This document shows positions 3,974-12,807 of a DNA stretch of 22,295 nucleotides, piece after piece. Each line of letters opens with the position of its first letter. The first letter of the stretch is position 1. The stretch is from the IMG/VR virus record IMGVR_UViG_3300023119_000138, positions 1 through 22,295 of that record, one strand, 5' to 3'. A model generated the notes under the pieces. The model was not told the origin of the DNA. It was given only the letters and a program-made list of their open reading frames with translations, and did no database searches. Origin of the DNA: a virus. Position numbers and translations under genes: made by a program.

Positions 3974-4789
3974 TTATCCGTTAAACAAGTCATCAAATGC
4001 TGATGCCACATCATCCATTTTCTTCTTTTCCTCAACCGTTGGTTGTGATGAAGGTGTTGGAGCAGTATTTTCACTCACTTTAGTTGTAGATGTTGAAAGA
4101 GTTTCTTGAGAAACCGATTCTTCACCATCTTCTGCAGTTGGATTCAACCAACCTTCCAATACTGATTTCAATTCTTCATAAGATAATTCTGAATAGATAT
4201 CCGTAATGTTAGTTTGGTTCTCCATAAAGTTAGTTTGTGCTGCACTATCTTCAGACAATGGAGTTTGGTTTGGTTTAATACGAATTGTAGTTACAGGATA
4301 AGAAGTTCCCGCATCTTCTGCTGATGTATATTCAATAGTAATATCTCTACCACCATTAACATCGGTAATATCACCATAATCAGGGTCTGCGATGTATCCT
4401 AATAATTCTTGGTAAACAGTTTTACCGAATCCCCAAAATCTTACACCTTCGTTTTCTTCACCTCTTACGATGACAGGAACGAATGTTCTTAATTTTGGTT
4501 CCATTTTCTTGGCTGCTTTCCAATCTTCTTTATCACCCATTCTCTTCAACTTATCAGCAAACTCAACGATTGGGTCTGGTCTACCAAATGAACTTGGAGA
4601 CAAGTAAGTTTTGTTGTTGATGTTGTAGTGAAAGAATAACTCGATGAAAGGATTTTCAGGAGAAAATTTGTAAGGAACGATTCTTACTTGATGTTTACCT
4701 GGAGTAGGTTTCCACAAATTGTCTTTGCGGTTTGAAGTGTTTTGCAGTTTGTTCAGTCTGCCTCTGATTGCATTCAAATCAAGTGCCAT
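3974..4789 (-). CDS. Single-stranded DNA-binding protein, gp32 type
   Basis: A 271-residue gp32-like SSB that would coat replication intermediates and recruit UvsX and the replisome. The N-terminus (1-25) is short and basic, as in the gp32 B-domain for cooperativity. The core (about 25-180) starts with the gp32-like LWKPTPGKHQVRIVPY and HYNIN, and contains FWGFGKTVYQELL near 140. A Ser/Thr/Glu-rich linker follows, then an acidic hydrophobic tail ending DDVASAFDDLFNG, which fits the partner-binding C-terminus of SSBs. There is no cysteine in the protein, so T4's zinc site (one His, three Cys) is absent. T4 gp32 is 301 residues. It is first in the gp32-uvsX-79 aa-exonuclease operon, behind a roughly 115-190 nt leader with two promoters, a hairpin and a late-type element. 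Confidence 0.88.
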   Translation of the reverse strand: MALDLNAIRGRLNKLQNTSNRKDNLWKPTPGKHQVRIVPYKFSPENPFIELFFHYNINNKTYLSPSSFGRPDPIVEFADKLKRMGDKEDWKAAKKMEPKLRTFVPVIVRGEENEGVRFWGFGKTVYQELLGYIADPDYGDITDVNGGRDITIEYTSAEDAGTSYPVTTIRIKPNQTPLSEDSAAQTNFMENQTNITDIYSELSYEELKSVLEGWLNPTAEDGEESVSQETLSTSTTKVSENTAPTPSSQPTVEEKKKMDDVASAFDDLFNG

Positions 4790-4908: not shown

Positions 4909-4940
4909 CAAATATACGAAAAATATTTTACACTACCAAA
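4909..4940 (-). promoter_or_regulatory. Bacteroidota-type promoter C (gp32 proximal)
   Basis: On the minus strand, TTTG at 4940-4937, a 20-nt spacer and TATATTTG at 4916-4909. It predicts a start near 4902-4905 and a leader of about 115 nt for gp32. The spacer end and -7 element (TTTTTCGTATATTTGT) are identical to promoter E at 12776-12807. Confidence 0.82.
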
Positions 4941-4986
4941 TCTTTTTTTACTTTTTTTTTGAGTGTGATTTTTCAATTTGTAAGTA

Positions 4987-5017
4987 CAAATATAAGGAAA
5001 ATATTTTAGAATTCAAA
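4987..5017 (-). promoter_or_regulatory. Bacteroidota-type promoter D (gp32 distal)
   Basis: On the minus strand, TTTG at 5017-5014, a 19-nt spacer and TATATTTG at 4994-4987. It overlaps the last codons of the halogenase gene and is in tandem with promoter C about 77 bp downstream, giving gp32 two early starts. Confidence 0.75.
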
Positions 5018-6553
5018 ATCTTTTCGATTATTTTTTAGAAAGTTTTGCACTGCACCGATAAATGCGGTATGAGGAATGTATTTGTCTGACATCTTCTCAT
5101 AATTTGATTGCATTTTGTTATAGACATCATCTGAAAGAAAGTGGAGACCTTGACTTTTTAAGGTGTTATTTAGTACCGTATCACTAATCAAACCATTACC
5201 ATCCAAAATCCAACACCATACACCCCAACCAGCAGAACCATGGTGATATGGGAAGTCATACGAGTTTGGAACTCTCCATTGACATATTTCCAAAATCTTT
5301 TCTACTAACTCTCCTCTTTTCAAATCATGTTTTACATATTTCCAAAATGGTGTATCTTCTCTTTCAACCATATAATGGATTTGAATTAAATCTCTGAATT
5401 CATCCAACATTTTTCCAAAATGGTCATTATATGCTTTGATGTTTGATTCTCTAACTAAGTTTTCTTTGATATGAGATAAACTATGTTGTGTTAGGTGAAC
5501 CATTTGAATAATCGTAGAATGAATAGATGTTGCTTCTAATGGTTCTAAGAAAGAAGATGATAATCCAACTGCGAGTACATTCTTTTTCCAAGTTTCTTTT
5601 AACCTACCACTATCAAACTTTATATTTCTAAGTGGTTCAATTTTTCTACCTGTTATTTCTTGCATTTCTTTTAATGCTTGTTCTTCTGAAACAAATTTGT
5701 CAGAATGACAATACCCACAACCATATCTTGTTTGTGTTGGAATTTGCCACATCCAACCATTTGGCATTGCCCAAGCAAGAGTTGATGGTCTAATTACCTC
5801 ATCCTTTTCCATTGGGTGTGTGTATACTAACGCAGAATTTATTGGTAAGTAATCCGAATAAGAAACCCATTCTGCACCTACCGAATTTATTAGTACTCTA
5901 TTGAATCCCGTACAATCAATCCAAAAGTCAGATTCAATTTCAGTACCATCTGATAGTATTACTCTTTGTAATTCTCCATTATTTGGATTTAGATTTGTAT
6001 TTGAAACTGTTCCCTTTTGTACTTTAACTCCATTTTTTAGAGCAACTTGTTTGAAGTATTCACCAACCTTGTACGAATCAAAATGATATGCATAACCTTC
6101 ATAACCACCATCTTCTGCTTTTAGTGGGAATGCAGATAAGTTTTTATCCCATAAGTATCTGTTTAGAGTTGCGTATGATGATTCATCATACTTTTTTGTA
6201 ATACAATAATCAACATCACATGGAAGTTCAAAACTATTTGTTTGTTGAAGTGGTTCGAAGAAAAAATCACCAACTCCATTCCAATCTCTACATTCAAGAC
6301 CTAACTTAAATGTTGTGTTACAATTTTCAAAAAACTGTTGTTCACTAAATCCTTCTAAATCTTTTAGAGTGTTTACTACTGCCATTGTCATAGCACCAGT
6401 TGAACCCTCACCCGCACCAATGATTGGGATGTCTTCACTTTCTATAACAGTAATATCGTATAAGGGGTCTTGTTTATCTCTTATATTTATTCGTGCAAGG
6501 AACAAAGATGCCATCCAACCGGCAGTTCCTCCACCTACTATAACAATTTTCAT
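5006..6553 (-). CDS. Flavin-dependent tryptophan halogenase
   Basis: A 515-residue FADH2-dependent halogenase of the PrnA/RebH family. Such enzymes use reduced flavin, oxygen and halide to make HOCl or HOBr, which a lysine relays to an aromatic carbon. The FAD-binding GxGxxG box is VGGGTAGW at residues 6-13. The catalytic lysine is K83 in TTFKLG (PrnA K79). The family signature WxWxIP is WMWQIP at 267-272. The glutamate matching PrnA E346 is E340 in FLEPLEATSI. Length fits the family (about 500-540), so the enzyme looks intact. No flavin reductase is visible; reduced flavin would come from the host. A phage-borne halogenase (VirX1, cyanophage Syn10) is known. The ATG follows the preceding small gene by 3 nt, placing it last in the 7892-5006 operon. 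Its substrate cannot be told from sequence. Confidence 0.93.
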   Translation of the reverse strand: MKIVIVGGGTAGWMASLFLARINIRDKQDPLYDITVIESEDIPIIGAGEGSTGAMTMAVVNTLKDLEGFSEQQFFENCNTTFKLGLECRDWNGVGDFFFEPLQQTNSFELPCDVDYCITKKYDESSYATLNRYLWDKNLSAFPLKAEDGGYEGYAYHFDSYKVGEYFKQVALKNGVKVQKGTVSNTNLNPNNGELQRVILSDGTEIESDFWIDCTGFNRVLINSVGAEWVSYSDYLPINSALVYTHPMEKDEVIRPSTLAWAMPNGWMWQIPTQTRYGCGYCHSDKFVSEEQALKEMQEITGRKIEPLRNIKFDSGRLKETWKKNVLAVGLSSSFLEPLEATSIHSTIIQMVHLTQHSLSHIKENLVRESNIKAYNDHFGKMLDEFRDLIQIHYMVEREDTPFWKYVKHDLKRGELVEKILEICQWRVPNSYDFPYHHGSAGWGVWCWILDGNGLISDTVLNNTLKSQGLHFLSDDVYNKMQSNYEKMSDKYIPHTAFIGAVQNFLKNNRKDFEF

Positions 6554-6556
6554 ATT

Positions 6557-6838
6557 TTATAAATTTTCTATAAAGTAATTTTTTATTTCATCTCGTTTTT
6601 CTTCCCAAACGGATTGACTTATTATTTCGGGAGCAGATGAACCAGTTTCTGATGATGATATAAAAGAATTTAATATACCATCGTATTTTACACTTCCAGA
6701 AAGTGAAGTCATAGATATTGTAGTATTTGTACTACCACTAACATCTACAACAGATGAAGAAACTAATGTAATTATTTCAGTAGTTTCATCAATTAGTTTG
6801 AAGTAGTTGTTAAATGATTTTATATAATGGGTACTCAT
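6557..6838 (-). CDS. Small protein, paralogue of its upstream neighbour
   Basis: A 93-residue protein of unknown function, clearly related to the 83-residue product just upstream. The N-termini share THY.K, YFKL.DET.E and I, and the C-termini share EEKRDE.K.Y and the ending NL. The central 50 residues have diverged and here are very rich in Ser and Thr. The ATG abuts the neighbour's stop codon and the stop is 3 nt from the halogenase ATG, so all three are translated from one message. There is no signal peptide or membrane segment. Linkage to a probable virion protein suggests a small structural or decoration role; a halogenase accessory is also possible. Confidence 0.75.
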   Translation of the reverse strand: MSTHYIKSFNNYFKLIDETTEIITLVSSSVVDVSGSTNTTISMTSLSGSVKYDGILNSFISSSETGSSAPEIISQSVWEEKRDEIKNYFIENL

Positions 6839-7090
6839 TTATAAATTATCATTAATGTATTGTTTTACCTCATCTCTTTTTTCTTCGTACTGAGATTGAG
6901 TTATTGACTCTGCATTACCCTCACTAACTATTTGATTAAATTCATCAGATACATTAGTTGGGGCACCACTATTATCAATACTCATTGCCGCACACTTATT
7001 GTCTGCGTTTATTGTTACACTAATAACTTCTCTTGTTTCATCAACAAGTTTGAAGTAAGTATCTCCCATTTTGTAATAATGTGTTGCCAT
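6839..7090 (-). CDS. Small protein, tandem paralogue
   Basis: An 83-residue protein of unknown function, with the same conserved ends as the next gene: N-terminal THYYKMGDTYFKLVDETREV and C-terminal EEKRDEVKQYINDNL. The middle segment (about 27-65) is variable and more acidic than in its neighbour. The two genes probably arose by tandem duplication with divergence of the centre. It starts 5 nt after the Trp/Tyr-rich gene, with an A/T-rich leader (AAAAATT before ATG) and no strong Shine-Dalgarno sequence, as expected in Bacteroidota. Confidence 0.75.
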   Translation of the reverse strand: MATHYYKMGDTYFKLVDETREVISVTINADNKCAAMSIDNSGAPTNVSDEFNQIVSEGNAESITQSQYEEKRDEVKQYINDNL

Positions 7091-7095
7091 AATTT

Positions 7096-7653
7096 TTAAC
7101 TTAAATTGTCTATTCTTATAAATTCATTACTCTGAGTATATAGACCACTATAATTTCTATAAGTATTTGCTCGTTCGTATACATTTAATAAATATCCTCT
7201 ATAATTGGAATAAATTCTTCGATAGTTGTAATTCCATGCACTACCCCAAGAAATTCCATTATCAAAATAAATATCATATCTTCTACCATACGGTTCAAAT
7301 CCTAACCAAGAATTTGGATAATAACGATTTATAGTTCCCCATTCCCAACGTTGACCAATATATTGTTGATTCCAATGATACCAAGTTATTCTTGTATCAA
7401 CATCATTCCGACTCTCTCTTTGTTGAAGTTGAATATGAGCACTACTTGCTCGATGGTCGTATCCTCTCCAATCAGAATATGCGTATCCTGAATTTGTTTG
7501 TCCAACACCAAGTGGATTTCTATCTCTACTTCGATTTACCGCGCCATAATATCCATTTCTTGCATGCCATATTGACATATAAGACCTGTAATATCTTCCA
7601 AATTCGGTGTTTATGTTTGAAGCTTCGACTCTTCCTGATGTTGATATAGGCAT
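7096..7653 (-). CDS. Trp/Tyr/Arg-rich, lysine-free probable virion (fibre-type) protein
   Basis: A 185-residue protein with extreme composition: by hand count 9 Trp, 24 Tyr and 22 Arg, but no Lys and no Cys. The opening (MPISTSGRVEASNINTEFGR), the GVGQTNSGYAYSDWRGYDH box near residues 50-65 and the stop after a short tail resemble a domain recurrent in marine phage tail and fibre proteins (ISxSxINTEFG ... YAxSDWYGYDH). I recall that family from experience and could not search it. The C-terminal half alternates aromatic and charged/polar residues, suggesting a beta-rich, ligand-binding or adhesive surface. It lies in a late-type operon with two small paralogues and the tryptophan halogenase. 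It could be a fibre tip or capsid decoration. Confidence 0.7.
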   Translation of the reverse strand: MPISTSGRVEASNINTEFGRYYRSYMSIWHARNGYYGAVNRSRDRNPLGVGQTNSGYAYSDWRGYDHRASSAHIQLQQRESRNDVDTRITWYHWNQQYIGQRWEWGTINRYYPNSWLGFEPYGRRYDIYFDNGISWGSAWNYNYRRIYSNYRGYLLNVYERANTYRNYSGLYTQSNEFIRIDNLS

Positions 7654-7655
7654 AA

Positions 7656-7892
7656 CTAAATATAATAAAGGGTTTTCGTTTCTAAATCTATATTACATTC
7701 ATGGTTATTATTTCTATTAACCACTTCCCACATATCGGTAGGCATATTAGAATCTCGTTCTACATCACCATCAACAACTTTTAGAATATCAGTTGGTTCT
7801 ATTTTTTCTTTTGTAGATTGTACTTGAAATACAATATGTTCTGGTTCACCAGAAAATCCTGCATTTACCACCTTACATAGTTCAGTTGCCAT
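7656..7892 (-). CDS. Small hypothetical protein, first gene of the halogenase operon
   Basis: A 78-residue soluble protein of unknown function (starts MATELCKVVNAGFSGEPEHI, ends ETKTLYYI) with no recognised domain. It follows a strong terminator (7971-7998) and a late-type element (7935-7942), and lies 2 nt before the Trp/Tyr-rich gene. It therefore appears to open the operon 7892-5006. The start is the only ATG near the leader. Confidence 0.7.
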   Translation of the reverse strand: MATELCKVVNAGFSGEPEHIVFQVQSTKEKIEPTDILKVVDGDVERDSNMPTDMWEVVNRNNNHECNIDLETKTLYYI

Positions 7893-7934: not shown

Positions 7935-7942
7935 TATAAATA
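7935..7942 (-). promoter_or_regulatory. Late-type element (TATTTATA) before the halogenase operon
   Basis: Minus-strand CTATTTATAC lies between the terminator at 7971-7998 and the ATG at 7892 (42 nt away). Terminator, element, gene is the same order seen at 20118-20165 and 21139-21199. Confidence 0.55.
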
Positions 7943-7970: not shown

Positions 7971-7998
7971 ATAAAATTGGGTTCTTTCGAACCCAATT
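7971..7998 (-). terminator. Intrinsic terminator after the amidase gene
   Basis: A perfect 10-bp stem (AATTGGGTTC / GAACCCAATT, arms 7998-7989 and 7984-7975) closes a GAAA tetraloop and is followed by TTTTAT on the minus strand. It begins 33 nt beyond the amidase stop. The plus strand also has a T run beyond the hairpin, so it may work both ways. Confidence 0.85.
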
Positions 7999-8030: not shown

Positions 8031-8942
8031 TTATAATGATACTAACATATCCATCAACTCTTGTTGAGGAAATAAGTCAAATTTATCTTTACGAGTGTTA
8101 GTGTGTGTCCAAGTTCCTTTTACTTTACCATAGTAAGCATCTTCATTGAACTCAAATGCTGCAGCACCCTTTTCTTTGATTAAAGAAGGTAATCCAGCTC
8201 TGATATCAATTCCATCTCTTTCACCGATAAACTTCATCCACTTTTCTAATTGTTCGATTTGTTTATCAGAATATCTATGCCAAGTTTTATGTCCTCTAAA
8301 TTCTTCTTTTAGAGTTACGATTTGTGAATCTGCTACTTGAGTACCAGCATAAGTTTTTCCATCTACTACATATCCAAAATTACAAATCTCAATTCCTACT
8401 GAATGTACATGCATATGCTGTGAACCATTCTTACCTAAATGCCATGCGTAGTTACCTTCTGGGAAACATTGTAATAATTCACCATCGTATCTTTCATCGT
8501 TTCCTTTTACCGATGGTCCACCCATTACCCATTCAGTAGCAATAGTTCCACCATCACTATCCCAATACTCAACACACTTATAAGGATTATGCCATCCTGC
8601 AGTGTGATGTAAGAAAAGATATTCGTAGTTTACAGGTCCATGTTTATATTCATCTTCGGGCATAAAGTATTCTACATACTCTAAATCACCTTTAGTTACT
8701 TTATTCTTTGAATAGATATCTGGTGCATCTGATTCTTCTTGTCCAGTTGCATCAGTATCATTTAATCCCATTGCTGCCCATGTTCCTTTGCCAACTAAAC
8801 CATCAGCATCTAAACCATTTAGGGATTGAAAATCTTTTACGGCTTGTTCCGTACCCTTTCCGAAGATTCCATCAGCACCAAGACCTAAAAATTCTTGAAC
8901 TGCCTTTACATCTTCACCTCTTGAACCTACTTTTAATAGCAT
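8031..8942 (-). CDS. N-acetylmuramoyl-L-alanine amidase (endolysin) with peptidoglycan-binding domain
   Basis: A 303-residue cell-wall lysin expected to cut the amide bond between MurNAc and L-Ala at lysis or entry. Residues 3-58 form a PG_binding_1 repeat (LKVGSRGEDVKAVQEFLG, then DGIFGKGTEQAVKDFQ and a DGLVGKGTW turn). A Ser/Asp linker precedes an amidase_2-type domain from about 100. HHTAG at 112-116 supplies zinc ligands, with further conserved AWHLG (H168), SVGIEICNFG (181-190) and TWHRYSDKQ (220-228). No signal peptide is present, so export would need a holin or delivery on the virion; no holin is visible here. It starts 10 nt after the 133-residue gene and ends before a strong terminator. 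The lysis role is inferred from domains. Confidence 0.9.
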   Translation of the reverse strand: MLLKVGSRGEDVKAVQEFLGLGADGIFGKGTEQAVKDFQSLNGLDADGLVGKGTWAAMGLNDTDATGQEESDAPDIYSKNKVTKGDLEYVEYFMPEDEYKHGPVNYEYLFLHHTAGWHNPYKCVEYWDSDGGTIATEWVMGGPSVKGNDERYDGELLQCFPEGNYAWHLGKNGSQHMHVHSVGIEICNFGYVVDGKTYAGTQVADSQIVTLKEEFRGHKTWHRYSDKQIEQLEKWMKFIGERDGIDIRAGLPSLIKEKGAAAFEFNEDAYYGKVKGTWTHTNTRKDKFDLFPQQELMDMLVSL

Positions 8943-11497: not shown

Positions 11498-12766
11498 TTA
11501 AAGTTTTGAGTAATCCGTACCCCATGATGCCTTTATTGGGAATCCATTCGATTCTACAATTTCTTTTAATTTTAACGCATCTTCTTTAGGAGTATCTAAT
11601 GGATAAGAGAATAAGAATGAATCATAAGTATATAAGGTCAACTCAATGTCGGTTTGTTTAATAAACTCCAACACTTTCCCCATTACATTCATATTCAATT
11701 CAGTTTCAGTTGCTTGTAGTAAGTAATTAAATACTTTTTGAGGATTCGATTGTTCTATGTAATTTAAAGGTATATTTCGATTGTATGTCGATACATAACC
11801 CCTTTTCGATGATTCACTCCACATTTCCTCTATATACGCTCTAACCTTCTTATAATAAGGAATAGAATCAAACTCTTCGGGTATTCCACCATATAGTAAT
11901 TGGAAGGTAATTCCTTTGGATTCATCATAAGGAACTCCATATTGGTCTGCTAACCATTGGTGAACCGAAGTCTTTGGTAATTCGTAATCAATCAACTTAC
12001 CAATGATTCGAGGGTGATATGCATCATAATCCATTTGTAGGAATATGTGATTTGGTTTTGGGATAAAGACTTCTCTCGTACCATCCTTTTTATTTAGAGC
12101 AGAGAAGTTAATACCACCAAATCTATTCGAAGGCCTTGATGTAATCGTATATGGATTGTATTCGGTATATAAGGTGTTACCTTTGAGATGTTTAGAAGCA
12201 TTGGGATATCTATCAAAAAATTTTTCCCTATCGACTTGGACGCCGTATTTCTCGATTTCTGAAAGGAGGGGAATCATTGTATCATCAATCCAAGATTTAG
12301 TTGGAGTAGGAAGATTAAGATTGTCAACAAACGAAGTTAGATACTCACCCCATTTCATCAAAGGTGCAATCTTTCCTAAATTTTCTCTTATACCCATTCG
12401 GGTATAATGTGAGATAAATGGTTGATTTTGTACCTCATCGGGTATAGTTTGATTCTTTTCAAAGAAGTAATAATTGGATATATCAAAAATATTTTGTATC
12501 TTTGTATCCATTTGTAATAAACCTTTCTTATTCCATACCCATTTTGGTTGTGTGGAGGTTGAGAGGTCTAAATGATGGGATTTCCCATCAATATGGTTGT
12601 ATATGAGAATAAAGTCAGTATTTCCCATCCTTACGAATAAAAAGGATAGTTCATTGTTCATTGGATGCTTCTCCAAATCAGACCATATAGGAATTACAAT
12701 CGATGGTTCATTATTCCATCGTTGTAAGAATTCTTCTTTCTCTTTATTACTTTCTACTATAACCAT
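11498..12766 (-). CDS. Short family A DNA polymerase
   Basis: A 422-residue protein with the palm of Pol I / T7-type polymerases. Motif A is LQMDYDAYHPRII (catalytic D246), preceded by the ITSRPSNRFGGINFSAL and FIP stretch typical of the family. Motif B is KGITFQLLYGG (K284, Y292-G293). Motif C is YTYDSFLF (D382), where the usual His-Asp-Glu has become Tyr-Asp-Ser. The N-terminal 150 residues look like a degenerate 3'-5' exonuclease lobe (SDLE in place of DxE). It is far shorter than T7 gp5 (704) or Pol I (928). I chose ATG 12766: an upstream in-frame TTG (12778) lies inside the promoter's -7 box. It has its own replication-type promoter, yet is wedged between virion genes. It may be a repair or accessory polymerase; replicative status is uncertain. 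Confidence 0.85.
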   Translation of the reverse strand: MVIVESNKEKEEFLQRWNNEPSIVIPIWSDLEKHPMNNELSFLFVRMGNTDFILIYNHIDGKSHHLDLSTSTQPKWVWNKKGLLQMDTKIQNIFDISNYYFFEKNQTIPDEVQNQPFISHYTRMGIRENLGKIAPLMKWGEYLTSFVDNLNLPTPTKSWIDDTMIPLLSEIEKYGVQVDREKFFDRYPNASKHLKGNTLYTEYNPYTITSRPSNRFGGINFSALNKKDGTREVFIPKPNHIFLQMDYDAYHPRIIGKLIDYELPKTSVHQWLADQYGVPYDESKGITFQLLYGGIPEEFDSIPYYKKVRAYIEEMWSESSKRGYVSTYNRNIPLNYIEQSNPQKVFNYLLQATETELNMNVMGKVLEFIKQTDIELTLYTYDSFLFSYPLDTPKEDALKLKEIVESNGFPIKASWGTDYSKL

Positions 12767-12775
12767 TTGAATTGA

Positions 12776-12807
12776 CAAATATACGAAAAATATTTGAACT
12801 ATCCAAA
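12776..12807 (-). promoter_or_regulatory. Bacteroidota-type promoter E (polymerase)
   Basis: On the minus strand, TTTG at 12807-12804, a 20-nt spacer and TATATTTG at 12783-12776. It occupies the whole gap after the preceding stop codon (12808). The start codon at 12766 is only 9 nt beyond the -7 box, so the leader would be about 3-6 nt. Confidence 0.82.

Follow-up and report, generated by a model that had tools for sequence, protein, structure and literature searches.

What does a phage halogenate? For more than ten years marine phages have been known to carry halogenase genes, whose role is so far a matter of guesswork. The stretch of DNA analysed here, called the window throughout, is a virus record of 22,295 base pairs (bp), labeled G000, from a T4-like myovirus in which nearly all genes lie on the minus strand: one side holds homologues of replicative helicase, exonuclease, UvsX and gp32, the opposite side the genes of the baseplate and tail tube. 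Reading from the endolysin gene to gp32, one meets a gene for a protein of 78 amino acids (aa), three genes that we call A, B and C, and a halogenase gene. The question raised by this locus is what that enzyme acts on, and we conjecture, with a probability of about one half, that it halogenates aromatic residues of protein A, either ahead of tail assembly or in the course of it. The argument uses the following features; the open reading frames (ORFs) of the original prediction, an earlier reading of the same DNA, all lie at the positions and on the minus strand where it had placed them.

5006..6553, minus strand: halogenase, 515 aa, variant A (PF04820), assigned by Pfam, PHROG 2928 and an AlphaFold2 (AF2) model
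5534-5536, minus strand: codon of halogenase residue E340
5738-5755, minus strand: halogenase motif WMWQIP
6305-6307, minus strand: codon of halogenase residue K83
6557..6838, minus strand: C, 93 aa, a paralogue of B by hhalign, present in all 11 distinct cassettes and in none of 70 empty sites
6839..7090, minus strand: B, 83 aa, found after A even without an adjacent halogenase
7096..7653, minus strand: A, 185 aa, rich in tryptophan (Trp) and tyrosine (Tyr), the candidate substrate and probably a virion protein associated with the tail fibre
7447..7653, minus strand: N-terminal domain of A, residues 1-69, from an alignment with 61 distinct paralogues
7099..7446, minus strand: C-terminal domain of A, residues 70-185, a predicted beta-sandwich with predicted local distance difference test scores (pLDDT) mostly of 80-93

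The gaps between the genes from A through the halogenase are only 0-5 bp. To see how these genes are distributed among related phages, we used gp32 and the gene of a 133-aa protein as markers on either side of the interval. The 124 marker-flanked loci fall into two classes, 37 with both A and the halogenase and 87 with neither, and no locus is mixed. Once identical intervals are merged, 11 distinct intervals contain A, B, C and the halogenase, 70 contain none of the four, and again none is mixed; the phages counted include relatives of one another, and the intervals should not be taken as independent events. The co-occurrence that the original prediction had proposed to survey thus holds at every interval. 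The closest empty site, in record G014, matches the window at 92.7% DNA identity as far as the end of the lysin gene; past this point come a divergent version of the 78-aa gene and then the upstream region of gp32, with all four cassette genes missing, and the whole record of 252.6 kilobases (kb) contains neither a halogenase nor a full A. Genes A, B, C and the halogenase are gained or lost as one unit.

Searches of 2.9 million viral contigs extend this linkage beyond the marker-flanked loci. Halogenase relatives number 39; wherever identity is 64% or higher and the upstream sequence available is long enough, A-B-C precedes the halogenase gene. The halogenases of loci L037, L038 and L039 (49-51% identity) lie in different genomic settings and still have A and one B/C-like protein in front of them; over such pairs outside the window's setting, identity is 36-38% for A and 47-51% for the halogenase. 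The profile of A finds 25 loci and that of B finds 24, the latter all on cassette contigs, and profile searches seeded with A and B reach only cassette or tail-cluster loci. When the A loci are pooled with those of the halogenase scan and with L366, a locus discussed below, a halogenase follows A by 301-567 bp in 22 of the 24 informative distinct A sequences. The halogenases linked to A fall together in a single clade with support 96/91; A is missing from its sister group, L040, L041 and L045. The original prediction had named halogenases without the aromatic-rich protein as a point against it: such halogenases are indeed present elsewhere in the family, in cyanophages, pelagiphages and loci L089-L132, and none was seen in the window's clade where upstream DNA is visible.

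Is the enzyme intact? The protein matches Pfam PF04820 (E 1.1e-95) and PHROG 2928 (E 1.9e-104), and the motifs that had been read as those of an apparently intact halogenase are all present. The flavin adenine dinucleotide (FAD) box GxGxxG takes the form GGGTAGW at residues 7-13, of which G7, G9, T10, A11, G12 and W13 are invariant in 15 relatives, as are the WxWxIP motif (WMWQIP, residues 267-272) and K83, the counterpart of the catalytic lysine K79 of PrnA. The catalytic glutamate, E346 in PrnA, corresponds to E340 within EPLEATS; it is kept throughout the same alignment except for a glutamine in L041 and L045, and is present in the window and in every aligned A-linked halogenase. The ratio of nonsynonymous to synonymous substitution rates between the window and its relatives, 0.05-0.26, indicates purifying selection. 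The AF2 model (pLDDT 85.4) matches PyrH at Z 41.3 (478 residues, 2.2 A, 29% identity), with Z values of 35-41 over PyrH, PrnA, MibH and VirX1. The catalytic motifs are intact, and halogenating activity is predicted. The change from EPLEATS to EPLQATS is found in the halogenases of L041, L045, L001 and L002, those of S-PM2 and Syn1 included; by their sequences, such enzymes would be of doubtful activity or altered chemistry.

The substrate pocket is another matter. In PrnA, residues H101, F103, Y443, Y444, E450 and W455 hold free Trp, by binding its amino and carboxyl groups and by stacking on its indole ring (PMC5659210). They align to E100, L102, H437, H438, G444 and I449 of the window enzyme: with these residues replaced, it does not read as a free-tryptophan halogenase.

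Of the 185 residues of protein A, 9 are Trp and 24 are Tyr, or 33 in all: this 17.8% agrees with the earlier estimate of about 18%. Among the 1,316 phage ORFs from related loci that are 120 aa or longer, the Trp and Tyr content has a median of 5.3% and a 99th percentile of 13.3%; only 0.3% of them match the richness of A, and all of these are relatives of A, a family whose members range from 12 to 22%. Eight aromatic residues are invariant across 13 A relatives: Y36, Y57, W62, Y65, W103, W116, W136 and Y148. A monomer model shows residues 70-185 as a beta-sandwich with good confidence, and residues 1-69 with a pLDDT below 50. The best structural matches of the C-terminal domain are Ig-like domains of streptococcal pilins, at Z about 9; we rejected homology to pilins and take the match as an Ig-like surface-protein fold only. 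Sequence searches of A against Pfam, PHROGs and the PDB, singly or as an alignment, gave no significant match, and tblastn with A, its diverged relatives and an N-domain paralogue gave none in the 50,697 phage records of INPHARED. A is also absent from the contigs of 84,980 bacterial and archaeal genomes. Foldseek finds one uncharacterised phage protein (E 8e-4, low TM-score), and nothing below 0.001 in the PDB.

The N-terminal domain of A is shared by a family of phage proteins, of which 80 loci were kept, with 61 distinct proteins. These paralogue loci have no halogenase, and an S74-type tail-fibre relative is found in 29 of the 80. The comparison of the two groups points to five columns in which the A family is aromatic and the paralogues mostly are not: position 22 (10/11 versus 0/57), position 25 (10/13 versus 1/61), position 29 (13/13 versus 2/61, the paralogues having mostly Asp), position 57 (13/13 versus 7/61) and position 59 (13/13 versus 3/61). 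Among the paralogue aromatics, one at position 29 (of two) and one at position 59 (of three) belong to locus L366, itself a relative of A. In the window, the residues in these columns are Y22, Y25, W29, Y57 and Y59.

Where would A be in the phage particle? The window's own A adjoins lysis genes, not the tail cluster, and it is its relatives that are informative. In L366, a relative of A and a B-like gene lie between a tail-fibre gene and the genes of the tail sheath and tail tube, a position which makes A a probable virion protein; in L038 and L039, a relative of A stands behind an S74 tail fibre gene; and in G009, an N-domain paralogue is beside a tail sheath gene. From this context, A is probably a tail-fibre-associated virion protein, in line with the original prediction, which had taken it for a virion protein.

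Proteins B and C, described earlier as two small paralogues, are true paralogues by hhalign (99.1%, E 1.5e-18). B is related to the small protein that follows A in L037, L038, L039, the G008 record and L366. Most members of the B family are without Trp, C has at most two, and neither is notable in its aromatic residues. In S-PM2 and Syn1 (T4-GC 860, 250) and in S-H38, small proteins are encoded ahead of the halogenase; they were tried as counterparts of B and C, and set aside since no shared motif was visible by eye.

The expression of the cassette can be approached through its surroundings:

3974-4789: gp32, flanking the cassette region
8031-8942: endolysin, flanking the cassette region
7656..7892, minus strand: 78-aa gene preceding A, present in the empty-site relatives L220 and L221 and missing from several cassette loci
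54-85, 1511-1541, 4909-4940, 4987-5017 and 12776-12807, minus strand: Bacteroidota-type promoters, exact matches to the pattern
4909..5017, minus strand: two tandem promoter sites TTTG-N19/20-TATATTTG, at and just past the end of the halogenase, facing gp32 and uvsX
7935..7942, minus strand: TATTTATA on the coding strand, 50 nucleotides (nt) upstream of the 78-aa gene, a candidate late-promoter element

Being found both with and without the cassette, the 78-aa gene is not counted in it. The Bacteroidota-type promoter pattern TTTG-N17/20-TAnnTTTG matches the window exactly five times on the minus strand and once on the plus strand, or six times where 1.27 are expected, a number reached by none of 100 shuffles; the pattern suggests that the hosts of these phages are probably Bacteroidota. 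The same exact scan of the window finds no such promoter within A-B-C or between A and the halogenase. Since the two tandem promoters face gp32 and none lies inside the cassette, the cassette would close the lysis and tail transcription unit rather than open the replication unit. The stretch singled out by the original prediction could be widened to take in the lysis genes ahead of it. The element TATTTATA occurs on the coding strand at plus-strand coordinates 4857, 7935, 9383, 11490 and 20118. It stands at near-fixed spacing before the start codons of a 684-aa gene (28 nt), the 133-aa gene (36 nt) and gp32 (75 nt), is conserved among relatives upstream of these three genes, and is a candidate late-promoter element of this phage group, to be compared with the late TATAAATA of T4. 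A sigma-70 scan is uninformative (27 sites versus 26.7 expected), and an inverted repeat (7975-7998) reaches a terminator score on the plus strand only. Elsewhere in the window, a DNA polymerase-like ORF of 426 aa (11498-12778, minus strand) matches only the C-terminal part of the PHROG 17 DNA polymerase, and is possibly a split polymerase.

Assuming that A is the substrate, the following scenario can be proposed. The cassette would be read late, together with the lysis and virion genes, and the enzyme would attach bromine or chlorine to Trp and Tyr side chains of its neighbour A, a small tail-fibre-associated protein that would combine an N-domain common in phage tail clusters with a C-terminal Ig-like beta-sandwich. 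The enzyme's pocket, without the clamp for a free amino acid, could accept a protein side chain. The likeliest sites would be the A-specific aromatics of the N-domain, W29 first, then Y57, Y59, Y22 and Y25. B and C are probably chaperones or delivery partners of A, and the benefit to the phage may be tighter hydrophobic packing or altered receptor binding; the hardening of an adhesive surface, suggested by the original prediction, is speculative. More tentatively, one may see here a dedicated phage halogenase that post-translationally halogenates a tail-associated virion protein of its own phage at lineage-specific aromatics, with the 2-oxoglutarate-dependent (2OG-Fe(II)) oxygenases that accompany other phage halogenases belonging to a wider tailoring of tail fibres.

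Several observations weigh against the halogenation of A. There are two cases of A without an adjacent halogenase, and both keep a B-like gene. In G008 (274 kb), A (18% Trp and Tyr) and the B-like gene occupy the site that holds A-B-halogenase in its relative G006 (L037); there is no halogenase at this site, nor was a remnant of one found, and the sole halogenase of G008 lies elsewhere and has E340 replaced by Q. In L366, A (14% Trp and Tyr, E 5.6e-41) and the B-like gene (E 1.8e-15) stand on a 7-kb contig within which there is no halogenase. A can thus act unmodified or be modified by another enzyme, and A-B may be an older pair to which the enzyme was added, or from which it was lost. Position 29 is Tyr in L037-L039, so that Trp is not strictly kept there. 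The active-site alignment is uncertain around residues 430-450, with a model pLDDT below 50 at residues 440-442. Finally, all full A proteins belong to one related family, and the gain of aromatics may date from one change in their common ancestor that had nothing to do with halogenation; even so, it names residues worth testing. The aromatics of A could by themselves serve glycan or receptor binding, and on this rests an account, improbable to us, in which the genes are neutral neighbours: a late 'moron' cassette would move en bloc, with aromatics that serve such binding or a very stable fold. That A remains aromatic in G008 and L366 fits this account, but the A-halogenase pair persists in other settings at the low identities given above, and window-type cassettes show no mixed state.

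Other explanations keep the enzyme active and change its target. It may make a halogenated small molecule during infection, such as an indole-type metabolite, a signal or an antibiotic, while A, B and C form a separate virion part that travels with it. Most characterised variant A relatives outside the pathways of ribosomally synthesised and post-translationally modified peptides (RiPPs) do use free small molecules, the open-pocket enzyme BrvH takes indole and not Trp (PMC5945002), VirX1 accepts many small aromatics (PMC8407142), and earlier authors have proposed metabolite roles for phage halogenases (PMC2984593, PMC7824862); however, the cassette has no other biosynthetic gene, and the strict co-loss with A, B and C and the A-specific aromatics make this explanation unlikely. 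A little less likely still is a different macromolecular target (B or C, the tail fibre or a component of the host surface), with A as a partner or a binding module that presents it: B and C are tied to the cassette as firmly as A, a tail fibre adjoins the A relatives of L038, L039 and L366, and other phage halogenases stand beside tail-fibre genes and 2OG-Fe(II) oxygenases, but neither B nor C is aromatic-rich, and the window has no nearby tail-fibre gene. As for a free-tryptophan halogenase that would deplete or tag host tryptophan, the database name, the overall fold and the WxWxIP motif all suggest it; we consider it very improbable, since the residues of PrnA that bind the backbone of Trp and stack on its indole are replaced (PMC5659210), and BrvH, which has no backbone-binding residues either, rejects Trp (PMC5945002).

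If A is indeed modified, the system would be the first viral protein halogenation system and A the first protein known to be a natural substrate of a phage halogenase; halogenation would be established as a post-translational modification of virions, and the enzyme would offer biotechnology a tool for halogenation at the protein level. By its sequence and context, A is the best candidate yet for such a substrate, and with a specific partner gene that is conserved and a set of identified candidate residues, the cassette opens the question of the natural substrate to direct testing. We found no report of virion-protein halogenation in the open-licence literature, where the papers found treat phage halogenases only in terms of antibiotic, metabolite or capsule chemistry (PMC2984593, PMC7824862, PMC10452541).

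Other phage halogenases have neighbourhoods of their own. In L038 and L039, a second halogenase follows the first; it is the first, at L038:6445-8490 and L039:8001-10046, that has an extra C-terminal region of about 170 aa, whose end matches Pfam DUF6445 (E 1.4e-6) and which by eye resembles a 2OG-Fe(II) oxygenase, so that one chain possibly holds two oxidative tailoring activities. The group of halogenases at 40% identity, L089-L130, has no A; in most of the group the neighbours are a Nudix gene, another halogenase and kinase or epimerase genes. On many of the viral contigs, two diverged halogenases stand one behind the other, preceded by a Nudix-like gene and followed by kinase- and epimerase-like genes (functions assigned by eye). 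In a handful of loci, P-SSM2, syn9, HTVC008M and L105/L109, phage halogenases lie near tail genes and 2OG-Fe(II) oxygenases, a qualitative observation. The halogenases at L105:4001-5512 and L109:4001-5518 have on one side a 2OG-Fe(II)-like oxygenase gene (confirmed by Pfam in L109) and on the other small similar proteins, and upstream of them lie long genes with, by eye, the look of tail-fibre genes: they are a candidate second case of a virion-linked halogenase.

How does the window enzyme compare with known systems? Structural and sequence similarity is highest to the free-tryptophan halogenases PyrH, PrnA and RebH, with which it shares the catalytic Lys and Glu; unlike PrnA, it does not keep the Trp-binding residues Y443, Y444, E450, H101, F103 and W455. 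In this respect it resembles the marine enzyme BrvH (PDB 6FRL; Z 39.5 to the window model), which is also without the amino-acid clamp and whose open pocket rejects Trp (PMC5945002), but BrvH is bacterial and belongs to no phage cassette. Among phages, the nearest parallel is VirX1 of cyanophage Syn10 (PDB 6QGM), a variant A halogenase with the same K79/Glu chemistry; it matches the window model at Z 35.1 over 470 residues, with 25% identity in the structural alignment, and prefers iodide in vitro (PMC8407142). In phage syn9, a pair of halogenases adjoins tail-fibre and 2OG-Fe(II) oxygenase genes; they differ from the window enzyme in lying on a distant branch of the tree, with no A, B or C as neighbour. 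The closest precedent for the chemistry comes from the RiPP Trp halogenases MibH and SrpI, which have the same fold (MibH at Z 37.9 to the window model) and act on Trp within a genetically encoded peptide whose gene lies in the same cluster (PMC12615548). Their substrates are short peptides, whereas A is a probable virion protein of about 20 kDa with a predicted folded C-domain; A shows no leader and core architecture, and no protease or transporter was recognised among the cassette genes or their direct neighbours. The halogenation of a gene-encoded peptide by MibH and SrpI is nonetheless a precedent, and we count it in favour of A as a protein substrate.

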